64,000 nt of DNA from Moheibacter sediminis (GTDB taxonomy: Bacteria; Bacteroidota; Bacteroidia; Flavobacteriales; Weeksellaceae): contig NZ_FWXS01000001.1 of the NCBI RefSeq assembly GCF_900176425.1, forward strand, positions 248,001-312,000, read 5' to 3'. Positions 9,902 to 60,597 of this stretch are shown piece after piece. Numbering within the stretch: position 1 is the stretch's first letter; each line of letters begins with the position of its first letter. The notes below the pieces were generated by a model. It worked only from the letters and a program-made list of their open reading frames with translations, was not told the DNA's origin and made no database searches. A program made the position numbers and the translations under genes.

Positions 9902-10339
9902 ATGAACGGAACAATGAACAAAGTCATATTGATAGGGAATCTGGGTGATGAAGTGAAAATGCACCAGTTTGATGATGCCAATAGCATAGGAAGATTTCCC
10001 GTTGCCACAACCGAATCTTTCACTTCTAAAGAATCAGGAGAAAAGGTTTCACAAACCGAATGGCACAACATTGTCGTGAGAAATAAATTGGCTGAAATCT
10101 GCTCTAAATATGTAAAAAAAGGCGATAAAGTATATATAGAAGGAAGGCTGAAAACCAGAAAATGGCAGGACAATAATAACCAAGACCGTTACACAACTGA
10201 AGTCATCGCAAGTGAAGTTATATTTTTAACGACTAAAGGAAATTCCGGAGGAGAAAATTCTTCTTATTCGCCGCCGTCACAACCTTCGCAGGACATTTCG
10301 CACAGTACGGAAGAACCGAATGATGATTTACCTTTTTAA
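9902..10339 (+). CDS. ssb: Single-stranded DNA-binding protein
   Basis: Homotetrameric SSB of 145 residues. The OB fold covers about residues 1-110 (MNKVILIGNLGDEVKM, then WHNIVVRNKLAEICSKYVKKGDKVYIEGRLKTRKW). It is followed by a short Ser/Pro-rich linker and the acidic tip DDLPF that recruits partner proteins. The ATG at 9902 gives the usual Bacteroidota N-terminus. It protects ssDNA in replication, repair and recombination. gldD follows after 15 bp; the gldE gene that often lies between ssb and gldD is absent. Confidence 0.97.
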   Translation: MNGTMNKVILIGNLGDEVKMHQFDDANSIGRFPVATTESFTSKESGEKVSQTEWHNIVVRNKLAEICSKYVKKGDKVYIEGRLKTRKWQDNNNQDRYTTEVIASEVIFLTTKGNSGGENSSYSPPSQPSQDISHSTEEPNDDLPF

Positions 10340-10354
10340 TTTTTGACAAAACAA

Positions 10355-10915
10355 ATGAAATATTTTTCGGGGTTAATTCTCCTTATAGTTTTAATTGCCT
10401 GTAAAGAAGATTATGGACTGAAACCTGTTGGCCACGTTCGTCTGGAATATCCGGAAGCGATTTATCAAAATTTTGATTCGGATTGTAATTATACTTTTGA
10501 ATTTTCAAATCAAAGCAAACCGATGCAAAAAGGAAAAGAGGCTTGTTGGTATGTTTTGCATTATCCGGGAATGAAAGCCAATATTTATATCACTTATTTT
10601 CCCGTCAACGGCAAAGAAGATTTGGCAATGAAAATCAAAGACAGCGAAAAAGTGGTGCATGAGCAAACTGTAAAAGCGAGTTACATTTCTCCAAGAGAAT
10701 TCATATTTGATGAGAAAAAAGTTTACGGAACTTTGTTTGAACTGGGCGGAGAATCTGCAATCAATATGCAGTTTCATGCTACGGACAGCACGAAAAATCT
10801 GATTTCAGGATCGGTTTATTTTTCTACTCCACCGAAGTATGATTCGTTGCAGCCTGCCATCAATCACATCAAAAAAGACGTTATCCACCTCATCGAAACT
10901 TTGAAGTGGAAATAA
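10355..10915 (+). CDS. gldD: Gliding motility lipoprotein GldD
   Basis: Lipoprotein of 186 residues with a type II signal peptide ending at the lipobox LIAC (Cys about residue 16), then the GldD-type start KPVGHVRLEYPEAIYQNF. GldD is required for gliding and T9SS function in Flavobacterium. ATG 10355 is preferred to a TTG 12 bp upstream because it gives a compact signal peptide. It sits directly downstream of ssb. A GldE homologue (CBS/hemolysin-type membrane protein) is expected next to it in many relatives but is not present here. Confidence 0.88.
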   Translation: MKYFSGLILLIVLIACKEDYGLKPVGHVRLEYPEAIYQNFDSDCNYTFEFSNQSKPMQKGKEACWYVLHYPGMKANIYITYFPVNGKEDLAMKIKDSEKVVHEQTVKASYISPREFIFDEKKVYGTLFELGGESAINMQFHATDSTKNLISGSVYFSTPPKYDSLQPAINHIKKDVIHLIETLKWK

Positions 10916-47870: not shown

Positions 47871-48056
47871 CTGAATGTTTAAAATTCAGTGTGTAAAGTT
47901 AGAGTAAAATTCTCAAAATTAACGCCAAAGTGAATGATTAACATAGATTTAAAATTGATTTAAACTTGGTAACATTGAATTAATGAAAACTTAAAACTAG
48001 GGAAAATAGAAATTTACAGATGATGCTGTTCTTTGCAGAGAAATTTGAAAAGAAAA

Positions 48057-50813
48057 ATGTATAAATCAATTTGTTTGTTTTTGTTTTTGACAGCGTTCAC
48101 TATGTTGAGTGCTCAATCGGAAGGAATTATCTTCGGAAATGTCAAGGACGATACGGGTGCGCCGGTCGAAAATGCCGATGTATTTATAGATGGTACGATG
48201 TATTCTGTGTTTACAGATGCAAGCGGTAATTATGAATTGGAAGTTGAGCCAAGTGCTTATGTCTTAATTATCACAGGAATTGGGTTCGACGAATTTTCTC
48301 AGGAAGTTACAGTAAACGCAGGAGAAAGAGTTGAGGTTTCTACACAATTGATTAGTTCATCTACTTCTACAACTCAGTTGGGTGAAGCGGTAGTTGTTGG
48401 TCAGGTGAGCAAAGAAACTGAATCAGCATTGCTGAATGAACAAAGAAAATCGGTGGTTATCACTGAAAGCATTGGAGTAAAGGAACTAGAAAGAAAGGGT
48501 GTTAGTGATGTTTCATCAGCTGTCACAAAGGTTTCGGGGATTTCAAAGCAAGAAGGTTCAAGTGTGGTTTATGTAAGAGGTTTAGGAGACCGTTACAATT
48601 CAACAACCATGAACGGATTGCCAATACCTTCGAATGATCCTGAATGGAAAAATATAGATTTAAGTATCTTATCGACTGATATTTTAAGTTATATAGGGAT
48701 TGATAAAGTTTACAGTGGAACTTTCTTTGGTGATTTTGCCGGAGGAAATGTAAACGTAAATTCTAAAAAACAAACCGGGAAAGGATTTTTCTCTTTCGGA
48801 ATGACTTCAAGAATAAATACAAATGCGATTAAAGATAATACTTTCAGATTGCAGCAAGGGATTAACTGGATGGGATTTGATAAAGTTTCCAATCCAAATT
48901 CTCTTACCCAGTATGGATTTGAGAATAGTTTAAATCCAAAAAAATCAGGTGCATTGGGAGCAGGCTTTTCATTAGCAGCAGGTGAAAGATTCAATGTGGG
49001 AGAAAACGGAAAATTCAGTTTTTTTGTTACAGGAACACATGACAATGACTATTCAAGTATAGAAGATGGTTTCTTAAGAACAGGAATTAATACGGAAGGG
49101 CTTTCACAAGGAAGAGATTTTCCAATCTATAGAAGATATGATTATACTACAAATACAACAGGATATTTAAACTTATCTTATCAGTTAAACCGTAAAAACA
49201 CCATTAACTTCAACAGTTTATTTGTGAATTCATCTAACCAAAAATTGGAAGAAGGTGAGGGTTGGATCAGAGATGTGGCTATTGACGGTGGTCAGCAAAG
49301 ACGTGGAACTTATGTTCAAAACATATTGTGGGTGAATCAATTATTGGGAGAACACAAATTAGGAGAACGTTCTAACTTGAATTGGGCATTTGGTTACAAC
49401 AAAGTAACAAGCGATTTGCCGGATCGTTTCCAAAATACTTTGAAATTTCAAAATGGAAATTATGTAATGGCAAACAATGCGGCTTCTGATAACCACAGAT
49501 ATTACCATGATTTGTCAGAAGATGAATACGTAGGAAACATCGCTGTGGATTACAAATTTGCAAAATCAGAAGATGGCTACAAAGGTAAAATCACTTTAGG
49601 ATACAACGGTCGTTACAAAGAAAGAGATTTGAATGCTTTACAATATAACTTCAGAGTAAATGCAGAAGGAGCAAATGTTCCGGTAGATTTTGCAAACATA
49701 GATGCTTTTTACAATCAGGAGAACTTCAACAACAACTGGTTTGACATGGTAACCTTCTCAGGTGATAATTTGAGCCGTCAGTATTATAATGGTGAACAAA
49801 ACATACAAGGAGGTTATGCAAACATAGAATACAAATTGACTCCAAAATTTACTGCAGTAATAGGATTAAGAGGCGAAATGGTAAATCAATTGGTAGGTTG
49901 GAACACATCTTTAGATCCAGTTGGAAGAGAAAATGAATTGGAAGAATTCATGTTTTTACCAAGTTTGAACTTAAAATATGAAGTAACCGACAGGCAAAAC
50001 ATACGTTTTGCGGCAAGTAAAACTTACACGCTTCCTCAGTTCAAAGAAAGAGCATTGTTTATGTATGAAGAATTTGACGGAACTACTGTAGGTAATCCTT
50101 CCACTTATGCTTCTACCGATTACAACGCAGATTTGAAATGGGAAATTTTTCCAAATGCGGGTGAATTAATTTCCGTAGCAGCATTTGGTAAATATATTTT
50201 AGACCCGATCAACAAATTTACAATGGCATCTTCTTCAAATGATTTGACTTACGGTAACACCGGAGATTGGGGATATGTTTTTGGAGGTGAATTGGAGGTT
50301 AGAAAATCAATTTTCAAAATAGAATCCAATAATCCGCTTCAATTAACTGCTGGTGCAAATGTTTCTTATGCTTACTCTAATCAGGAACTTAATCCAGAAA
50401 AATTATATGATGAAACTCTATTGGCAAACGGTTACAGAATTACAGCCAATTTCACAGATGAAGAAGCTGCATTCCAAGGTGCTTCAGATCTTTTGTTGAA
50501 CGGTGATATTTCCATTAACAAAGAATGGGAAGGCGGTGAAATGTTCATGGCAACTCTTGCTTACAACTATTTTTCAGACAGAATTTTTGCATTAGGGGTT
50601 GAGGAAAGAGGAAACATCATTGAAAAAGGAATCGGAACACTTGATTTTATCATCAGAACTAAAGTTTCCAAAAACATAGGAATCAATTTAAATGCGAGAA
50701 ATCTTCTGAATCCAACTTTTGAAAGATTTCAGGAAAACAAGGCTGGAGATGTAACCAATCTTAGCTATAAAAAAGGAATGAACTTTAGCTTAAACGTAAA
50801 TTATCAATTTTAA
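48057..50813 (+). CDS. TonB-dependent outer-membrane receptor
   Basis: Protein of 918 residues: signal peptide (MYKSICLFLFLTAFTMLSAQ), a carboxypeptidase-regulatory-like beta-sandwich (about 22-105, GIIFGNVKDDTGAPVENADV), a plug domain (SDVSSAVTKVSGISKQEGS, then VYVRGLGDRYNSTTMNGLPI), and a barrel ending in aromatic SLNVNYQF. It imports an unknown ligand with TonB energy. ATG 48057 is preferred to an upstream TTG because it gives a clean signal peptide. No SusD is present; a beta-helix lipoprotein follows 23 bp later, apparently in one operon. Confidence 0.9.
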   Translation: MYKSICLFLFLTAFTMLSAQSEGIIFGNVKDDTGAPVENADVFIDGTMYSVFTDASGNYELEVEPSAYVLIITGIGFDEFSQEVTVNAGERVEVSTQLISSSTSTTQLGEAVVVGQVSKETESALLNEQRKSVVITESIGVKELERKGVSDVSSAVTKVSGISKQEGSSVVYVRGLGDRYNSTTMNGLPIPSNDPEWKNIDLSILSTDILSYIGIDKVYSGTFFGDFAGGNVNVNSKKQTGKGFFSFGMTSRINTNAIKDNTFRLQQGINWMGFDKVSNPNSLTQYGFENSLNPKKSGALGAGFSLAAGERFNVGENGKFSFFVTGTHDNDYSSIEDGFLRTGINTEGLSQGRDFPIYRRYDYTTNTTGYLNLSYQLNRKNTINFNSLFVNSSNQKLEEGEGWIRDVAIDGGQQRRGTYVQNILWVNQLLGEHKLGERSNLNWAFGYNKVTSDLPDRFQNTLKFQNGNYVMANNAASDNHRYYHDLSEDEYVGNIAVDYKFAKSEDGYKGKITLGYNGRYKERDLNALQYNFRVNAEGANVPVDFANIDAFYNQENFNNNWFDMVTFSGDNLSRQYYNGEQNIQGGYANIEYKLTPKFTAVIGLRGEMVNQLVGWNTSLDPVGRENELEEFMFLPSLNLKYEVTDRQNIRFAASKTYTLPQFKERALFMYEEFDGTTVGNPSTYASTDYNADLKWEIFPNAGELISVAAFGKYILDPINKFTMASSSNDLTYGNTGDWGYVFGGELEVRKSIFKIESNNPLQLTAGANVSYAYSNQELNPEKLYDETLLANGYRITANFTDEEAAFQGASDLLLNGDISINKEWEGGEMFMATLAYNYFSDRIFALGVEERGNIIEKGIGTLDFIIRTKVSKNIGINLNARNLLNPTFERFQENKAGDVTNLSYKKGMNFSLNVNYQF

Positions 50814-50836
50814 AATAACACAATAAATAAATAAAA

Positions 50837-51997
50837 ATGAAAAAATCAGTTTTAAAAGTATTAGGAGTATTTGTAATGTCCTCTTCATTATTCTTAGCTA
50901 GCTGTAGCAGTGATGATGACAAAGGAGGAGATCCTCAACCAAGTTTGATCAACCCGGAAAACATGCAGGGAGAATTCTCAGCGGGTGAAAACATCGTTTT
51001 GGATGCCAATGTAGTTTACAAATTAAAAGGACCTTTGGTAATGTTGAACGGAAGTAAATTGACTATCCCGGCAGGTACCAAAATCGAAGCAACAGGAGGA
51101 ACAAGTTCTTACATCGCTATCGGACAAAATGCACAGATTTTCGTAAACGGTACAGCTACAAATCCTGTAGTTATTACCAACCCAACACAAACTCCAGGTT
51201 CATGGGGTGGAATAGTTATCTGTGGTAATGCGCCAATCAACAAAGCTGCTACTGCATCTGCAGAGGTTTCTGGTTTGACTTACGGTGGTACAGTTACAGG
51301 TGATAACTCAGGTTCAATCAAATATTTGAGAATTGAATATTCAGGAGCAATTTTCTCTAATGAAAAAGAATTCAACGGTTTAAGCTTGTTCGGAGTAGGT
51401 TCTGGAACAGTAATCGATTATGTTCAGGTTTACCACGGAACGGATGATGGTTTCGAATGGTTTGGAGGAACTGTAAATACTAGCAACTTGGTTGCTGTAG
51501 GTAACGAAGATGATCAATTTGACTGGACTGAAGGCTGGATCGGAACAAACACTAATTGGTATGGAAAAGAAGGTTTTGCAAAAGGAAACAGAGGTATAGA
51601 AGCTGATAATTTAGGTGGAAACAACTCAATGTCTCCATTCTCTAATCCTACAATCACAAACTTAACTCTGATAGGTATTGCAGAAAGTGGAGAACCTCAA
51701 GGTATTAAATTGAGAGAAGGTACAAAAGGAACTTTGAACAACGTAGTTTTGGCTAACTGGGCTACGGGTATCGATATCCAACATGATGTAACATTAAGCT
51801 GGATTCCAGGTGGAGAACTTAAAATCAACGGAGTTAGGTTCGAAAACGTAGGAACTGAATCTAAAGGTTCAAACAGTGCTGGTACTGCAGTTGATGTAAC
51901 TGCTGCTTATACGGTAAATAACAATGCAACTGGTGCAGGTAATGGTGTTAATTTGCCAACTTGGGCACAAGGCTGGACAAATATGACAGGATTATAA
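50837..51997 (+). CDS. Surface lipoprotein with right-handed beta-helix-like domain
   Basis: Lipoprotein of 386 residues with lipobox LASC (Cys23) followed by SSDDDKGG, an acidic stretch of the kind that marks Bacteroidota surface export. The mature part is rich in Gly, Asn and Thr with repeated strands (LTIPAGTKIEATGG, then SWGGIVICGNAPIN, GSIKYLRIEYSG and TVIDYVQVYHGTDDGFEWFG), which suggests a beta-helix. It is partner to the TonB-dependent receptor upstream and takes the place a SusD protein would hold. Ligand unknown. Confidence 0.7.
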   Translation: MKKSVLKVLGVFVMSSSLFLASCSSDDDKGGDPQPSLINPENMQGEFSAGENIVLDANVVYKLKGPLVMLNGSKLTIPAGTKIEATGGTSSYIAIGQNAQIFVNGTATNPVVITNPTQTPGSWGGIVICGNAPINKAATASAEVSGLTYGGTVTGDNSGSIKYLRIEYSGAIFSNEKEFNGLSLFGVGSGTVIDYVQVYHGTDDGFEWFGGTVNTSNLVAVGNEDDQFDWTEGWIGTNTNWYGKEGFAKGNRGIEADNLGGNNSMSPFSNPTITNLTLIGIAESGEPQGIKLREGTKGTLNNVVLANWATGIDIQHDVTLSWIPGGELKINGVRFENVGTESKGSNSAGTAVDVTAAYTVNNNATGAGNGVNLPTWAQGWTNMTGL

Positions 51998-52026: not shown

Positions 52027-52060
52027 AAAACCTCTCTACACAGTAGAGAGGTTTTTGTTT
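52027..52060 (+). terminator. Terminator of the receptor-lipoprotein operon
   Basis: AAAACCTCTCTAC pairs with GTAGAGAGGTTTT (13 bp, 3-nt loop) followed by T-rich sequence. Confidence 0.88.
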
Positions 52061-52176: not shown

Positions 52177-52686
52177 TTAATTCCAGTAGTACCATTTGCT
52201 TCCGTCAAAAACAGCCAATGCTTTATTAGTCGTATCATAACACATCATCCCTGGATATGGACTTTTTACATGCAAATGTGGCTCGGCTACTTTGGGTAAA
52301 ATCATTGCCATATTTGGTGATTCTAATACTAAAATACCATCAACTGAACTTACTACATCACCAATTATTACACCTTCACCTGTGTCTGCAGAAGGATTAG
52401 AAATGACATTCCCAGTTCCACCATCTTCAGATAGATTTTTCCAAAGACCATTTTCATATACTTTGACTACATTGTCGTGGGTATCAAACACGAAATTTCC
52501 ATTTGCTGGAGAAACATCATCCGTAGAAGTCACAGCCGGGAGGATAATTCCTCTGGTATTGTCCGGAGCATCTCCAAAATCGAGCAATGTGCTTGCGCCA
52601 TTTAGAGTTTCTTTACCGATTAATAATTGAGCATTTAAACATAGGTTTGAAGCGATTAAGATGCTTGAGAAGATAATTCTTTTCAT
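52177..52686 (-). CDS. Exported protein with C-terminal YNG/W-type module
   Basis: Protein of 169 residues with a signal peptide (MKRIIFSSILIASNLCLNAQ). The mature part begins like other Bacteroidota surface-structure proteins (LLIGKETLNGASTLLDFGD, TRGIILPAVTSTDDVSPANG, then VYENGLWKNLSE). Its last 55 residues (VLESPNMAMILPKV, then GMMCYDTTNKALAVFDGSKW) repeat the same pattern and are shared in outline with the end of the 1425-residue protein upstream. Forty-two bases separate the two genes. Function unknown; a surface-assembly partner is plausible. Confidence 0.6.
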   Translation of the reverse strand: MKRIIFSSILIASNLCLNAQLLIGKETLNGASTLLDFGDAPDNTRGIILPAVTSTDDVSPANGNFVFDTHDNVVKVYENGLWKNLSEDGGTGNVISNPSADTGEGVIIGDVVSSVDGILVLESPNMAMILPKVAEPHLHVKSPYPGMMCYDTTNKALAVFDGSKWYYWN

Positions 52687-52728
52687 CTTTTTTAATTGTT
52701 TGGGTTTGGTTAAAAAATAAAATATGGT

Positions 52729-55700
52729 TTAGTCGCATTTTTTCTGGATGCATTTCCAGACCGCTCCGTTGTGTAGTTTGACACAACCAGCTTGTATATC
52801 ATAAATTAACATTCCTTCTTTGGGTTCGGTTATTGCATTTTCGTTTTGGACACGTGTAATCACAAATCCTTTATTTTTTGATTCCAATGCTAGAAAGCCA
52901 TTTGGAATGCTTTCCGGCCAGCTTTTAGATGGAGCCGAAAGAGAGCTGATTCCCGTAATTGTATTGGCATCCGCCAGCTCTGGGTTGGGATCTTTATAGC
53001 AACCACAATTATTAAATATGACTGCTTCTTCAACCTTCATCTCACATGTTTCACCTGACGGATAAGACGGAAGTGTAGCTGTGTACGATATGATAGTATT
53101 TCCTGTAGAAATCCCTGTTACAACTCCATTGTTGTCGACAGTAGCCACCAAAGGATTGCTGCTTGCCCATACACCACTTATGACTTCATCAGGAGTGTCA
53201 ACAGAATACGTGATGTTGTCGCCGATGCATACAGGATTTTGTCCGTTGTCAATTGTCATATCAGGAAGTTCATCGTGCAGGCTAATGGTAATAGAAGTCC
53301 TTGAGCTTGGCATAATAGGTGGGTTTCCAGACCATTGATTGGCTATTCTGTATTGAGCCTCCAGAGAACCGCTTGTAAATCCGATGTTTGGTGTAAAGCT
53401 TACTACACCTGTCAATGTATTTACTGATAAATTTCCTTTTCCGGGTATAGTAAGATTGGTGGTATTATTTCCTGGGTTATTTACATTGTTTGGGTCAAAT
53501 AGTCGTATTGATGAATTCTGTACTGTAAAAGCATTTCCGTTTACAGGTGCATGCGGTTGAACATAATCATCCAGGTCAAATGTAAGAGCTTTAGGTTCAC
53601 AGAAACTAATTTCAACTTTTTGCGTTATCGGCGGATAGCCGGCAGTTGTAGGTGGAGCAGAACAATCATAAGTTACGTCACTATATGGAGTCATAGAGTC
53701 AGGGCGTATAGTATTGATAGCCGGATTATCTTCTACAAATTCATCAAAAATTTGATCTCCGGTAGGGCTCGCGTCAAAAAATTTAATCGGGCTTCCGGCA
53801 GAATTACCTACAAATGTTCCGGCACTCTCAAAGTTTGTATCTCCTGTGAAATAAAATTCGCCATAACCACTTATATCACCGGAATTTCTGAAGTTTGCTC
53901 CTCGTACAAACCCGGTTGTTGAGTTAATTAAAATAGATAATGTTCCTTCTAATTCAAACATATTAGTTACCCAGATCAAACCATTGTTTTCTGAAGTTCC
54001 GTTTCCTACAAAATAATCATTACTAAGAATAGTACAATTATTTACTATACTTGAACCTGCTACATTGTGAGATACAGATCCTCCTACTACAACTCTTTCA
54101 TTATTGACCATTTGACTGATTGGAGAATTAAGAGACAAATTACCTCCGTCAAATATGGTCAGCAAATTATTATTTTGAAGAAGCGGTCCTTGAAATTCTA
54201 CAGAGGCGGCATTGTGGAATTCCAAAATTCCATCGTTGGTCAGATATGTATCCATCCCAAAAATAATGTTTTGGTAAATCTGCATAGTGCCGTAATTATT
54301 TACTTCTGTGGAAATACCAGTTCCTGAATTGGCTCTGTAAATCTGCGCCGTTCCACTATTGTCAAAAGGACTGGTAATGTTGGTAGCGCCATTCGTTTGA
54401 TTTAGAAGCACATTTCCTCCTAATTTATTATCAAAGTAACCACTTGTACCTAAGAAGAAAAAGTTATTATTGACAGTAAAACTACTGTGATTGATAATAG
54501 TCATATTGTTACCATTGAATTTGTTTAAAGTCATGGTGCCATGGTTTACTATCTCCGATCCATTCAAAAATATAGCGTCTCCAGATGTCATATTTACAAC
54601 ACCATCGACCATATTTTCAATACTTCCGGCAAAATTTTGTAAATTATCGGAATTAAATGTCCCGTAATTAATTATTTCAGGATGATGATTTGCATTATTA
54701 TAAGTAATTAAATTCATAGTCCCCCTGTTGATGATAGTACCTTCATAAACGTTAGGTCCCCATGAAGGGTTGAAAGTGGTTCCTTCTCCTATACAGATAG
54801 TTCCGCCGGTATTTAAAGTAACTGTACCTGTGTATGTACCTGAATGCAGGCAATAAATTTGACCAGCGTTTACGGTAATGTGTCCTGTGCCATTAGGAAT
54901 GATATTAGTGCAATCAGCACATGCATTTAAAGGTGTAATACTTTCGGAGTTGTTGGATGAATTTCCATCTGAGCCATTGTGGCTAACAGAAGCTGTTACG
55001 GTGTAAGGTCCCGTAGCCTGCTTTTGAGCGGTAATTTCCAATGAATTACTAGTGCCGTTGGCTAAGTTCCCAATCGTCCAAATTCCTGTTGAAGAATTAT
55101 AAGTTCCACCTGAGTTGTTGCTTATGTGTGAAAAACCTGCGGGTAACAAACTTGCCACAGTTACACCAGATGCGTTATTCGGTCCATTATTTTCAACTTC
55201 TATAGTAAAGGTTACATTATCACCAGTTTCTGGCTCATTTGGAGTCATAGAAATATTTATTCCTACATCGGTAGGTTCGTCTGTAATTACGTGCGAAACC
55301 ACTCCACTAATAATCGGACCTTGATATAAGTTCGGATTGTTAAGGTCTGTTCGTGGATTCCTAATAAGGAAGTCAGTATAAGAAACGTCAGTATGGCCAA
55401 ATAAGTAAATCCTTAAATATAATGTTTGTTCAGTTTCATATCCTCCAGGAAAGTTTAATACTAAATTTTGCTCTGATCCTCTAATCAAATTTTGCTCAGA
55501 GTCTAAAATTGTTCCATTTGAAGGAAAAGATGGGTCTGTTGAATAGCGTATTTGTAATTTACTGGGTCCATTAGCTACTGGAGAAAAGTATTGAAATTTA
55601 AATTGAGACAATAATATCTTATATGCATCATTTGGGGTAATGCTAAATTCCAAATATTTACTATAATTTATAGTATTGTTGACACCATTATGAAAATTAT

Positions 55701-57006
55701 TAACTCTAAAACCTGTCCAATCAAAATTTTGTATTGTAACTCCTCCACCAGTGCCGATAGAATTAGCACTGACATTAGTTCCTACTAAAGTTGGAGTAAG
55801 GTTAGCATTATTCCATTTTACTAAATCCACCGGATTGCTATATATACTAATAGTTACTGAAACTGTATTAGAAGTCATGTTATGTATGTTGGTAACATTG
55901 TATTGAAAACTATCTGTACCTATATAATCAAGACTAGGAATATAATTAATGGTATTATCAGGATTTACTGTTGCATTTCCATGAGCTGCATTGGTAATTA
56001 TTGTTACTTGATTAAATGCTCCACTTCCCGGACTGTCATTAGCAAGCACATTGATATTTGTGGTCTGATTTGCAACAACTGATACTGCATCAGCAACCGC
56101 CGTAGGAGCGACAGGAACATTTACTGTAACATTTACTGTAGCTTCATTTGAAGTTCCATTTCCGTCTGTAATAGTATATTTGAAGCTGTCTGAACCTGTG
56201 TAGTTGGTATTGGGTGTATAGGTGACATTTGTAACTCCGTTTACAGTTATATTCTGCCCATTTGTAGGTTGTTGCGTAATGTTTATAGATGTTAGCGTAC
56301 TGTGCGTATCATTGGCTAAAATATTTACAGGGACAGCTATATTTCTCGCTGTGGTAATGTTGTCATTTGCTGCTACAGGAGGTGAAGCGGCGGAAACAGT
56401 TCCTGTAATTGTAGGGGGATAGTTAATTCCTCCCGAGCGCAGAATATGAAAATTTTGATTTGTATTATACGCATATATCCTAATTCTAACAGTTTGTCCG
56501 GGCAGAACAGGATTTACGGAAGATAAACTGTTAGAAGCACTTGTCCAACCAGTAGGAACACTTGTATTTCCAATCATAGTGGAATACGTTGCAAAATTAT
56601 CTTTAGAATAACGAACCTGAAAATTTTGACCGGATGATTGTGCTCTATAGTAAAAATTGAAATTAGCCAAATTTATCTGATAACCTGTGTTGGCAGAAAT
56701 AGAAAACTCGACATATTTTGAAACATCAATACTTCCACCATTTTGTGCAGGAGTGGGCCAACCGGCTGTATGAAAAAAGTTTTCACTCCAAGTTTGATGA
56801 GTTAAGGTAACACCATTTTGGGTAATGTTAGAAGCAGTAATTGTAGTATTGCTTGCAACATAAGTTGGAGCATAGTTGTCATTATTCCATCTAACCAAAT
56901 CCGTCTGAGCAAAAGAAACAAGAGGAGTAATAAACAATAATAAAATAAGAAAAAATTGAAAATAGGTTTTGATTGGAAGTTCGGGTAGTTTAGGTAATTT
57001 GAACAT
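52729..57006 (-). CDS. Giant adhesin-like surface protein with Ig-like repeats
   Basis: Protein of 1425 residues with a signal peptide ending LVSFAQ (about residue 34). Domains in order: a beta-sandwich opening TDLVRWNNDNYAPTYV; two cadherin/VCBS-type repeats (NILANDTHSTLTS and YTPNTNYTGSDSFKYT, then NVLANDSPGSG); a second copy of the opening domain (VDLVKWNNANLTPTLV); a DUF11 repeat (GDNVTFTIEVENNGPNNASG); a long Asn/Gly-rich parallel-beta region (about 690-1070); a gap with a hallmark SFCEPKALTF; and a Big_2 repeat (ASSNPLVATVDNNGVVTGIS). It ends in a module (EGMLIYDIQAGCVKLHNGAVW) like that of the small companion gene. No type A T9SS tail is seen. Confidence 0.8.
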   Translation of the reverse strand: MFKLPKLPELPIKTYFQFFLILLLFITPLVSFAQTDLVRWNNDNYAPTYVASNTTITASNITQNGVTLTHQTWSENFFHTAGWPTPAQNGGSIDVSKYVEFSISANTGYQINLANFNFYYRAQSSGQNFQVRYSKDNFATYSTMIGNTSVPTGWTSASNSLSSVNPVLPGQTVRIRIYAYNTNQNFHILRSGGINYPPTITGTVSAASPPVAANDNITTARNIAVPVNILANDTHSTLTSINITQQPTNGQNITVNGVTNVTYTPNTNYTGSDSFKYTITDGNGTSNEATVNVTVNVPVAPTAVADAVSVVANQTTNINVLANDSPGSGAFNQVTIITNAAHGNATVNPDNTINYIPSLDYIGTDSFQYNVTNIHNMTSNTVSVTISIYSNPVDLVKWNNANLTPTLVGTNVSANSIGTGGGVTIQNFDWTGFRVNNFHNGVNNTINYSKYLEFSITPNDAYKILLSQFKFQYFSPVANGPSKLQIRYSTDPSFPSNGTILDSEQNLIRGSEQNLVLNFPGGYETEQTLYLRIYLFGHTDVSYTDFLIRNPRTDLNNPNLYQGPIISGVVSHVITDEPTDVGINISMTPNEPETGDNVTFTIEVENNGPNNASGVTVASLLPAGFSHISNNSGGTYNSSTGIWTIGNLANGTSNSLEITAQKQATGPYTVTASVSHNGSDGNSSNNSESITPLNACADCTNIIPNGTGHITVNAGQIYCLHSGTYTGTVTLNTGGTICIGEGTTFNPSWGPNVYEGTIINRGTMNLITYNNANHHPEIINYGTFNSDNLQNFAGSIENMVDGVVNMTSGDAIFLNGSEIVNHGTMTLNKFNGNNMTIINHSSFTVNNNFFFLGTSGYFDNKLGGNVLLNQTNGATNITSPFDNSGTAQIYRANSGTGISTEVNNYGTMQIYQNIIFGMDTYLTNDGILEFHNAASVEFQGPLLQNNNLLTIFDGGNLSLNSPISQMVNNERVVVGGSVSHNVAGSSIVNNCTILSNDYFVGNGTSENNGLIWVTNMFELEGTLSILINSTTGFVRGANFRNSGDISGYGEFYFTGDTNFESAGTFVGNSAGSPIKFFDASPTGDQIFDEFVEDNPAINTIRPDSMTPYSDVTYDCSAPPTTAGYPPITQKVEISFCEPKALTFDLDDYVQPHAPVNGNAFTVQNSSIRLFDPNNVNNPGNNTTNLTIPGKGNLSVNTLTGVVSFTPNIGFTSGSLEAQYRIANQWSGNPPIMPSSRTSITISLHDELPDMTIDNGQNPVCIGDNITYSVDTPDEVISGVWASSNPLVATVDNNGVVTGISTGNTIISYTATLPSYPSGETCEMKVEEAVIFNNCGCYKDPNPELADANTITGISSLSAPSKSWPESIPNGFLALESKNKGFVITRVQNENAITEPKEGMLIYDIQAGCVKLHNGAVWKCIQKKCD

Positions 57007-59627: not shown

Positions 59628-60155
59628 TTAATCTGAATTTAACATTTGGATTAAATCAGATTCATAACCTTTTTGCAGAAGGTAATTTCTTATTTTAGCT
59701 TTCTTCTTAAAACTTTCGCGTTCAGATTTCAGGGATTCTTTTTTCTTTTGAAATAATTCTTCCAATCGGGAAAAATAATCATCAGCATTGATTTCTTTCA
59801 AAGCAGAATCAATCATTTTTGAAGGAACTCTTTTCTTTTTTAATTCAGATTTAATTTTAATTCTTCCCCAATTTTTTTGGTTGAATTTTCCACGCACAAA
59901 ACTCTTAGCGAAACGTTCTTCGTTCAGAAAATTGTATTGAATCAAATAAATTATGATTTCATCTCGGGCTTCGGGAATGATAAAAAATTCGTGTAATTTA
60001 TTCTCCACTTCCCACTGACAGCGGTCTTGGTAAGCGCAGTATTTTGCGAGTTTGTCTCTGATTTCTGTAACGGTAAAACTTTCTGTTTTGTTGTTATTTT
60101 TTATATCCAATTCTGTTGCGTTCTTTTTGTTCTTCCGTTTGATTGTCTTTTTCAA
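59628..60155 (-). CDS. recX: Regulatory protein RecX
   Basis: RecA modulator of 175 residues with the RecX helical repeats: YCAYQDRCQWEVENKLHEFF, LIQYNFLNEERFAKSFVRGKF, then WGRIKIKSELKKKRVPSKMI. It caps RecA filaments and limits recombination. The first 26 residues are a low-complexity basic stretch not typical of the family. The start overlaps the preceding ORF6N gene by 62 bp, so the true start may lie further in, perhaps at a non-ATG codon near FTVTEIRD. Confidence 0.9.
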   Translation of the reverse strand: MKKTIKRKNKKNATELDIKNNNKTESFTVTEIRDKLAKYCAYQDRCQWEVENKLHEFFIIPEARDEIIIYLIQYNFLNEERFAKSFVRGKFNQKNWGRIKIKSELKKKRVPSKMIDSALKEINADDYFSRLEELFQKKKESLKSERESFKKKAKIRNYLLQKGYESDLIQMLNSD

Positions 60156-60597
60156 GTAAATAATTAATTACCTGAAAAATATCTTTGAAATTCTTATCGT
60201 ATTTAGATTCCATCTCTTTCAATTTGTCGGAAAGTTCTTTATAACTCATCACAAATTCCTTCAAAGAAATGAAAGCATCAACAATTGCAATGTTGGTTTG
60301 AATCGCTTTACACTTGCTAACATTGTAACTCCGTGTTCTGTGAATGCGAATGGAGTTGTGGTTACGTTTCTTTTGGATTGATTGATCCGATGCGGTCACA
60401 ATTTGTGACCGCATCATTTCCCATTCGTCTTGAGTTAGCCTGAACATAAATCTTTCAGGGAATCTTTCAATATTTCTTTTAACTGCCTGATTGAGAACTT
60501 TAGTCTCAACTTCATAAAGTTCGGCTAAGTCGAAATCCAACATGACACTTTGCCCTCGGACTTCATAGATTTTGTTTTGGATGGTTGTAAGTTGCAT
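60094..60597 (-). pseudogene. ORF6N-domain protein with two compensating frameshifts
   Basis: The open frame (167 residues) starts as a normal ORF6N protein (SVMLDFDLAELYEVETKVLNQ then AVKRNIERFPERFMFRLT) and resumes at KAIQTNIAIVDAFISLKEFV. The residues between (about 18, NHNSIRIHRTRSYNVSKC) do not match the family. In the neighbouring frame the same DNA (about 60305-60367, minus strand) reads VTTTPFAFTEHGVTMLASV, exactly the missing ORF6N core. Two indels thus shift out of frame and back. The protein is probably inactive. Such genes are common in phage and mobile DNA of Bacteroidota. Its 3' end overlaps recX. Confidence 0.85.

Follow-up and report, generated by a model that had tools for sequence, protein, structure and literature searches.

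How can a very large surface protein that carries no recognized sorting tail be displayed on the cell surface of a member of the Bacteroidota? This question is raised by a locus in a 64-kilobase stretch of Moheibacter sediminis contig NZ_FWXS01000001.1 (hereafter, the window; the window's family is Weeksellaceae, with Chryseobacterium). Within the window, a gene encoding a giant protein of 1425 amino acids (aa) (52729..57006, minus strand) is followed, after an intergenic gap of 42 base pairs (bp) (52687..52728), by a gene on the same strand encoding a companion protein of 169 aa (52177..52686, minus strand). An original prediction, made from the sequence alone, held that both proteins end in one type of module, that the companion holds two units of it, and that the module may serve as an anchor or as an assembly signal for a surface fibre made of a long and a short subunit. 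Results from the analysis described here suggest that the pair is part of a split surface-display system, in which the tail module and the companion plug tail-less giants into an adaptor of the type IX secretion system (T9SS); we give this reading a probability of roughly 0.6.

Both open reading frames (ORFs) were located as predicted, and the motif shared by the two proteins has been probed by profile comparison. The giant module (C1336–C1424; 52735..53001, minus strand) has the motif LALESKNKG...EGMLIYD...HNGAVW, which is similar to LVLESPNMA...GMMCYD...FDGSKW in companion unit 2 (residues 103–169; 52180..52380, minus strand) and to GASTLLDF..NTRGIILP...NGNFVFD...YENGLW in companion unit 1 (residues 20–88; 52423..52629, minus strand). 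Alignments of 40 companions and 35 giant tails were split into unit 1, unit 2, and giant module and compared using hhalign, with 30 column-shuffled alignments per comparison as control. The resulting probabilities are 98.0% for unit 2 versus the giant module (shuffled maximum 4.0), 92.9% for unit 1 versus the giant module (shuffled maximum 2.4), and 89.6% for unit 1 versus unit 2 (shuffled maximum 12.3). As all three are far above the shuffles, the motif appears to be a homologous module with one copy in the giant and two in the companion, which bears out the first two claims of the original prediction.

The number of modules in each partner is constant. One module region is found in 36/36 giants, and one unit of each type, joined by a linker of about 16 residues, is found in all 161 companion rows; these fetched pairs include duplicates between records and reduce to 151 distinct pairs, with the companions for this count picked by full-length score. 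The four invariant cysteines of the giant module are kept in 151, 150, 150, and 151 of the 151 distinct pairs, and the invariant columns in the alignment of 36 giants are confined to the tail, the four cysteines among them. The module ends 0–11 aa before the C-terminus in 149/151 distinct pairs. In L084 and L121, about 235 aa follow the module and the companion gene is still next, and G091:C13, where the companion match is short, is probably a third case; these internal modules make a signal confined to the very C-terminus less likely. The stretches following the module (L084:7227-9995 and L121:8268-9989) have no significant Pfam match.

The companion consists of a signal peptide and the two modules only. 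The signal peptide (residues 1–19; 52630..52686, minus strand) looks cleavable by eye, and Q20, the first residue past it, is kept in 40/40 aligned companions. Mature companions contain one cysteine in 106 of the 151 distinct cases and none in 45, and C149, the sole mature cysteine of the window's companion and located in unit 2, is present in 104. No lipobox was found in the 151 distinct companions with a simple pattern, the kind of pattern on which the counts of both signal peptides and lipoboxes rest. Given this simple composition and the missing lipobox, the anchor part of the original prediction is not supported for the module or the companion themselves.

Neither protein has a type A T9SS tail, as had been predicted from the sequence: no T9SS sorting family is matched at an E-value of ≤1 in Pfam or NCBIfam, and none of the genome's 114 type A matches lies within the giant or companion gene. 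The last 100 residues of the giant have no Pfam or NCBIfam match. Similarly, no type A (PF18962/TIGR04183), type B (TIGR04131), or type C (NF033708; E ≤ 0.01) match is found in the 36 giants. In control searches the type A model matches a control protein and the type B model matches the adaptors described below; the type C model is present in the NCBIfam library.

The pair is a conserved unit far beyond the Moheibacter sediminis genome. Companion relatives are present in 6/6 genomes examined of the genus, its own included, and in 252/296 genomes of the window's family (8 of the 252 with a best match weaker than 1e-10), and a genome of this draw has as many as 13 matches. A phylum-wide draw, in which nine candidates were scored per genome, returned any companion match in 28/392 genomes and clear full-length companions in eight genomes of the family and in one from elsewhere in the order. 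Named records extend the companion to Pedobacter, Belliella, Aequorivita, and Paenimyroides, and in the genus to which the Pedobacter record L115 belongs it occurs in 12/145 genomes. A tblastn search placed the companion on no phage or plasmid, and no relative was confirmed in viral contigs. One companion among the 80 named loci lies at a contig edge, and a module ORF directly precedes the companion in 77 of the other 79. In 20 genomes, a set that overlaps in part with the named loci, a module protein lies ≤300 bp upstream of 120/138 companions and a companion lies ≤300 bp downstream of 120/142 module proteins, among the matches listed. The 138 companion rows were kept from 150 listed after dropping 4 N-terminal halves of split hits, 6 modules of giants themselves, and 2 other partial hits, and the 142 module rows were kept from 150 listed after dropping 8 under 50 bits. 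Several exceptions in the 20 genomes are still adjacent, including four cases of split hits, a reversed pair in G036 (C1:1347319-1350969, companion first, with the order taken from frame length), and a convergent pair in G120 (C1:2006329-2007149).

This adjacency bears on the simplest explanation, namely that two ordinary secreted proteins share a common module and that their gene order reflects operon inertia. The broader module is indeed common, with at least 556 relatives in viral contigs and further copies in a tandem array of the Moheibacter sediminis genome, and some solitary companions and modules exist. However, adjacency is kept at many places of one genome despite changed order (G036) or orientation (G120), and it is kept despite exchange of the ectodomains, making operon inertia a very improbable explanation.

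The exchange of ectodomains is apparent from the giants themselves. Module ORFs in the 20 genomes span 148 to 3039 aa, and the tails of the 36 giants are similar in 630/630 pairs while the remaining parts are similar in only 110/630. Matches in the ectodomains are typical of adhesins (DUF11, DUF6923, CshA repeats, L-type lectin, immunoglobulin (Ig), fibronectin type III, and F5/8 type C), each occurring in no more than 5/36 giants. For comparison of the two partners, 80 of the 120 linked pairs were fetched; 411 comparisons among all 80 have a companion similarity >0.5, and 328 of these have an upstream similarity <0.2 (19/30 in the same test within genomes). Within genomes, using 11 genomes with at least four fetched pairs (172 comparisons), module similarity correlates with companion similarity (r 0.864; maximum of 500 permutations 0.376), and does so more closely than the similarity of the 105 aa preceding the module (r 0.562). 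A BamM identity for the giants, raised by NCBIfam matches in 11/36, was rejected: five located matches lie mid-protein at 26–53 bits against a cut-off of 315, and the strongest match (E 6e-53) is not among these five. Weak mid-protein BamM matches were noted in the giants of L113, L115, L123, L124, and others.

Operon context outside the window's family provides the main argument for the predicted type IX secretion of these proteins. In L115 and L123 (Pedobacter), L116 (Aequorivita), and L125 (Paenimyroides), the companion gene is followed by a gene for a 413–782-aa protein with an NCBIfam type B sorting tail (39–51 bits against a cut-off of 35, with L116, at 30.8 bits, below the cut-off). Next in these four operons are a PorP/SprF protein (>260 bits against a cut-off of 90.55) and then an OmpA-type protein; that of L116, the sole one scanned, matches the PorE model at 344 bits, under its cut-off of 600. 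For Porphyromonas gingivalis, a PorE-PorP-type B complex has been described (PMC9143113). Profiles for the adaptor, PorP/SprF, and PorE-like proteins were built from these four loci, which are themselves among the 16 loci considered outside the family; the others are ten further Pedobacter-genus carriers, G645 (a Flavobacteriales genome), and Belliella L114. An adaptor gene follows the companion in 15/16 of these loci, including a weak match at a contig end (L307) and the first part of a homologue that is cut by the contig end (L309). An ORF with a type B tail lies beside the companion in 13/16 loci, PorP/SprF is found in 12/16, and an OmpA/PorE-like gene is found in 11/16. NCBIfam confirms the type B tail in 13/14 adaptor ORFs and PorP/SprF in 8/8 further and 4/4 earlier ORFs. 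A type B tail protein with a neighbouring PorP/SprF is found in 12/16 loci, with the tail on the adaptor and not on the giant. The PorP/SprF-like gene of L314 (4384-5470) appears to be split over two frames, as judged from profile hits.

Comparison of these operons indicates which parts vary. Among seven Pedobacter-genus loci (21 comparisons), the module (54–90% identity), the companion (65–85%), and the front part of the adaptor (56–95%) are alike in all, whereas the giant ectodomains are similar in 4/21 and have no similarity in 17/21. With 13 loci (78 comparisons), the front parts of the giants are similar in 28, the adaptors in 48, and the modules and companions in 78. As the constant parts are alike in 21/21 comparisons and the ectodomains in 4/21, a constant set made up of the tail module, companion, adaptor, PorP/SprF, and PorE-like protein carries exchangeable giants. 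Furthermore, because the pair adjoins an adaptor with a type B sorting tail and PorP/SprF, an anchor in a neighbouring protein is likely outside the window's family.

These findings can be combined in a mechanism. The giant would bring adhesin-like ectodomains with no known sorting tail, its own tail being a small trimerisation-type module akin to a phage fibre tip. The companion would act as a dedicated assembly partner that closes or locks the giant tail once both proteins are past the inner membrane. Where the operon is complete (Pedobacter, Aequorivita, Paenimyroides, and a Flavobacteriales genome), the giant-companion tail would be coupled to the separate type B adaptor, which would be handled by its own PorP/SprF and PorE-like protein, so that a single, constant type IX docking set could accept different giants. 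The pair may have become independent and multiplied in the window's family, where type IX export would presumably rely either on an adaptor encoded elsewhere or on the tail of the pair itself. What is observed is the homology of the units, the 1:2 module number, adjacency, co-divergence, the exchange of ectodomains, and, outside the family, the operon; we infer physical contact between the partners, a trimer-type geometry, docking on the adaptor, and the export route. The assembly part of the original prediction, a long with a short subunit, is well supported, if indirectly, by adjacency, the constant 1:2 module number, co-divergence, and fibre-like relatives.

The most economical version of this scheme is that the two modules of the companion complete the one of the giant and that the closed tail docks on a type B adaptor where one adjoins. 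Taken further, the sorting signal would act in trans: one giant (one module) and one companion (two modules) would form one pseudo-threefold tail that docks on the type B adaptor, through which giants that lack a sorting signal would be exported or displayed, leaving them freely exchangeable. This proposal fits both the 1:2 module number and the operon, and is put forward as a tentative form of the system that is less probable than not.

Alternatively, the module together with the companion could be a further T9SS sorting signal in cis, with the operon adaptor being separate cargo. The position of the module close to the C-terminus, the lack of type A, B, and C families in the 36 giants, and the occurrence of the pair without a linked adaptor in the window's family are consistent with such a signal, as is the distribution of the T9SS protein SprA. 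SprA is found in 287/296 family genomes; among the 286 of high quality, the companion is present in 244 of the 279 with SprA and in 0 of the 7 without it (hypergeometric 9e-7 if the genomes are independent, although the seven represent two genera, and 3 of them are not among the 20 of 44 companion-less genomes listed). The sole SprA-positive genome of one of these two genera (G092, 5% contamination) has companion matches. A companion is present in two incomplete genomes (76% and 73%) where SprA was not matched. SprA is also found in 9/9 further carrier genomes searched (at least four of them also in the family draw and two in the genus of L115), and in the genus of L115 it occurs in 142/145 genomes and in 12/12 companion carriers, the 3 genomes without SprA having no companion. 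Given the near-ubiquity of SprA in the groups with the pair, the two genera that hold the seven negative genomes, and the two incomplete exceptions, co-occurrence with SprA counts as support and not as the main T9SS argument. In contrast to what a cis signal would predict, the module is internal in L084 and L121, and the same module type caps proteins of phage contigs, which do not use T9SS; some other reason would also be needed for the position of the pair beside a type B adaptor set. A cis signal is rather unlikely, and has its best chance in the window's family, whose loci have no linked adaptor.

The kinship of the module offers insight into how the tail might assemble. Profile comparison with the viral module gave probabilities of 96.4 for unit 1, 97.8 for unit 2, and 98.2 for the giant module (shuffles ≤4.8), which places all three units in a superfamily of phage fibre C-terminal modules. 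Among the best 80 viral loci, the module forms the C-terminus in 66/78 complete ORFs, 24 of these 66 modules differing by >25%, and another viral relative has module copies among eight YadA head repeats, a repeat type that belongs to trimeric adhesins. At the family level, the companion matches DUF2793 (PF10983) at 21.1 bits, under the curated cut-off of 27 bits, and is not assigned to it; DUF2793 is also weakly matched by 22/35 giant modules (best E 5.4e-4), and the companion matches further phage families, most of unknown function. Wide occurrence in unrelated intracellular proteins, which would speak against the predicted role of the module, was not seen, the relatives found being secreted or phage fibre-like. 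The Moheibacter sediminis genome itself contains a tandem array (L137:3787-14734, G000:C11) with a looser form of the module next to the signal peptide. This array holds about nine secreted paralogues, most with the looser module after the signal peptide, that differ in their C-terminal parts; one has a weak Fib_succ_major match, and the looser module has no Pfam match in the four array proteins scanned. In Pedobacter, a 717-aa secreted protein encoded between two module-companion units (L115:4667-6820) carries a generic module close to its N-terminus; its C-terminus looks coiled by eye, as in chaperone-type fibre proteins.

Predicted structures have also been compared. The AlphaFold model of the giant tail is of moderate quality (predicted local distance difference test (pLDDT) score 72, about 91 across residues 71–100 of the model). 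For the giant module, unit 1, and unit 2 alike, the fold matches include residues 5–49 of the phage Major Tropism Determinant (MTD), the end of the tailspike TSP3, and collagen XV/XVIII trimerisation domains, the latter at Z 3.0–4.2 with models of moderate to low confidence. These models provide moderate evidence that the module may be a trimerisation-type unit. Among sequences in the PDB, the companion has no relative (E ≤ 1), the module has one chance-like match (E 0.19), and the viral module has none (E ≤ 10). The same data bear on a further arrangement, in which the giant forms a homotrimer via its own module and a companion homotrimer stacks on it as a cap or chaperone (3:3 or transient). 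In line with this arrangement, the relatives in phage contigs cap the C-terminal ends of fibre-like proteins that are presumably homotrimers, and each unit alone returns the same fold matches. It leaves unexplained, however, why the giant has one module and the companion two, and is regarded as doubtful.

Several results weigh against the split display system, in which the module and companion couple giants to a type IX adaptor. The operon link was found outside the window's family only, and inside the family the pair stands alone: the window contains no ORF for an adaptor, PorP/SprF, or PorE-like protein, and hence no type B operon, and the other 75 named loci have no adaptor set in their flanks (up to 10 kilobases, the rest of these genomes not having been searched). 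Outside the family, Belliella L114 has the pair without the adaptor operon. The companions of L097 and L099 (around 9995-10531) are solitary and lie behind an unrelated gene (IMP dehydrogenase/GMP reductase-like by eye in both). Because adjacent genes co-diverge by linkage, co-divergence marks the pair as a unit and not as proteins in contact, and the 105 aa before the module correlate with the companion as well (r 0.562; permutation maximum 0.270). An interchain disulfide between giant and companion was rejected, as C149 has no clear covariation with a giant cysteine. The AlphaFold model of the companion is poor (pLDDT 65.5, predicted template modelling score 0.35), the fold matches are weak (best Z 4.8, where Z <8 may mean only a common arrangement; best Foldseek E 0.076), and SH2 domains and further unrelated folds turn up with lower Z in the same searches.

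The giant possesses a signal peptide (residues 1–33; 56908..57006, minus strand; cleavable by eye), Ig/cadherin-like repeats, DUF11, a beta-solenoid-like stretch noted by eye, Big_2, and the one C-terminal module. Domain searches place the better of two Big_9 Ig-like stretches at residues 209–294 (56125..56382, minus strand) and DUF11 at residues 580–691 (54934..55269, minus strand). A terminator-like hairpin of 13 pairs (52027..52055) lies between the companion gene and a convergent plus-strand gene, although terminator-like sites here are no commoner than in shuffled sequence; promoter-like sites were rejected for the same reason. The convergent plus-strand genes (48033-51997) encode a TonB-dependent receptor followed by a beta-helix-like lipoprotein and look ordinary by eye. 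Further along the window (59628-60597), an ORF6N/KilA-N-like ORF overlaps the start of a RecX-like ORF on the same strand, again as judged by eye.

No description of the pair was found in the literature searched, which covered type C tails, trimer modules of fibres, Chryseobacterium secretomes, partner genes of adhesins, and BamM but leaves out most subscription papers and preprints. As in type B display (SprB-SprF; PMC12618676, PMC9143113), each large surface protein has a partner gene of its own next to it, several such pairs occur per genome, and outside the window's family the locus also encodes a protein with a type B tail, a PorP/SprF, and a PorE-like protein. In contrast to type B display, the giant has no type B tail, the tail and the sorting signal are on separate proteins with a two-module companion between them, and the window's family has no such set nearby. 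The locus appears to work like a type B display system in which the giant, failing the tail test, is not itself a type B substrate. The T9SS type A and type C domains likewise recur as a conserved tail on secreted Bacteroidota proteins that have nothing else in common (PMC10202324), but the giant matches neither, has a dedicated partner gene, and can carry its module internally. The phage fibre tip module, an unnamed neighbour of DUF2793 by weak Pfam matches, shares profile homology with all three units and is also C-terminal; its listed viral copies lack the four-cysteine pattern, and no relative of the companion was confirmed in viral contigs. The collagen XV/XVIII domain and the phage trimer units of MTD and TSP3 may resemble all three units in a predicted small beta arrangement, with weak matches and no sequence relation found; trimerisation here is a prediction.

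The occurrence of the same cysteine-bearing tail module on diverse large surface proteins in many Bacteroidota, with a two-module secreted partner encoded next to each and, in some genera, a type IX adaptor in the same operon, points to an unrecognised plug-in system for adhesin display. For a large group of Bacteroidota adhesins that lack a known sorting tail, there is now a recognisable tail and a partner gene, and in some genera also a full operon for type IX docking where nothing but the ectodomain varies. Consequently, it can now be asked experimentally whether the two-module partner completes the one-module tail, whether a type B tail can display another protein, and whether ectodomains can be swapped. 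With as many as 13 companion matches in a single genome, specificity could be tested in the way already applied to type B pairs.

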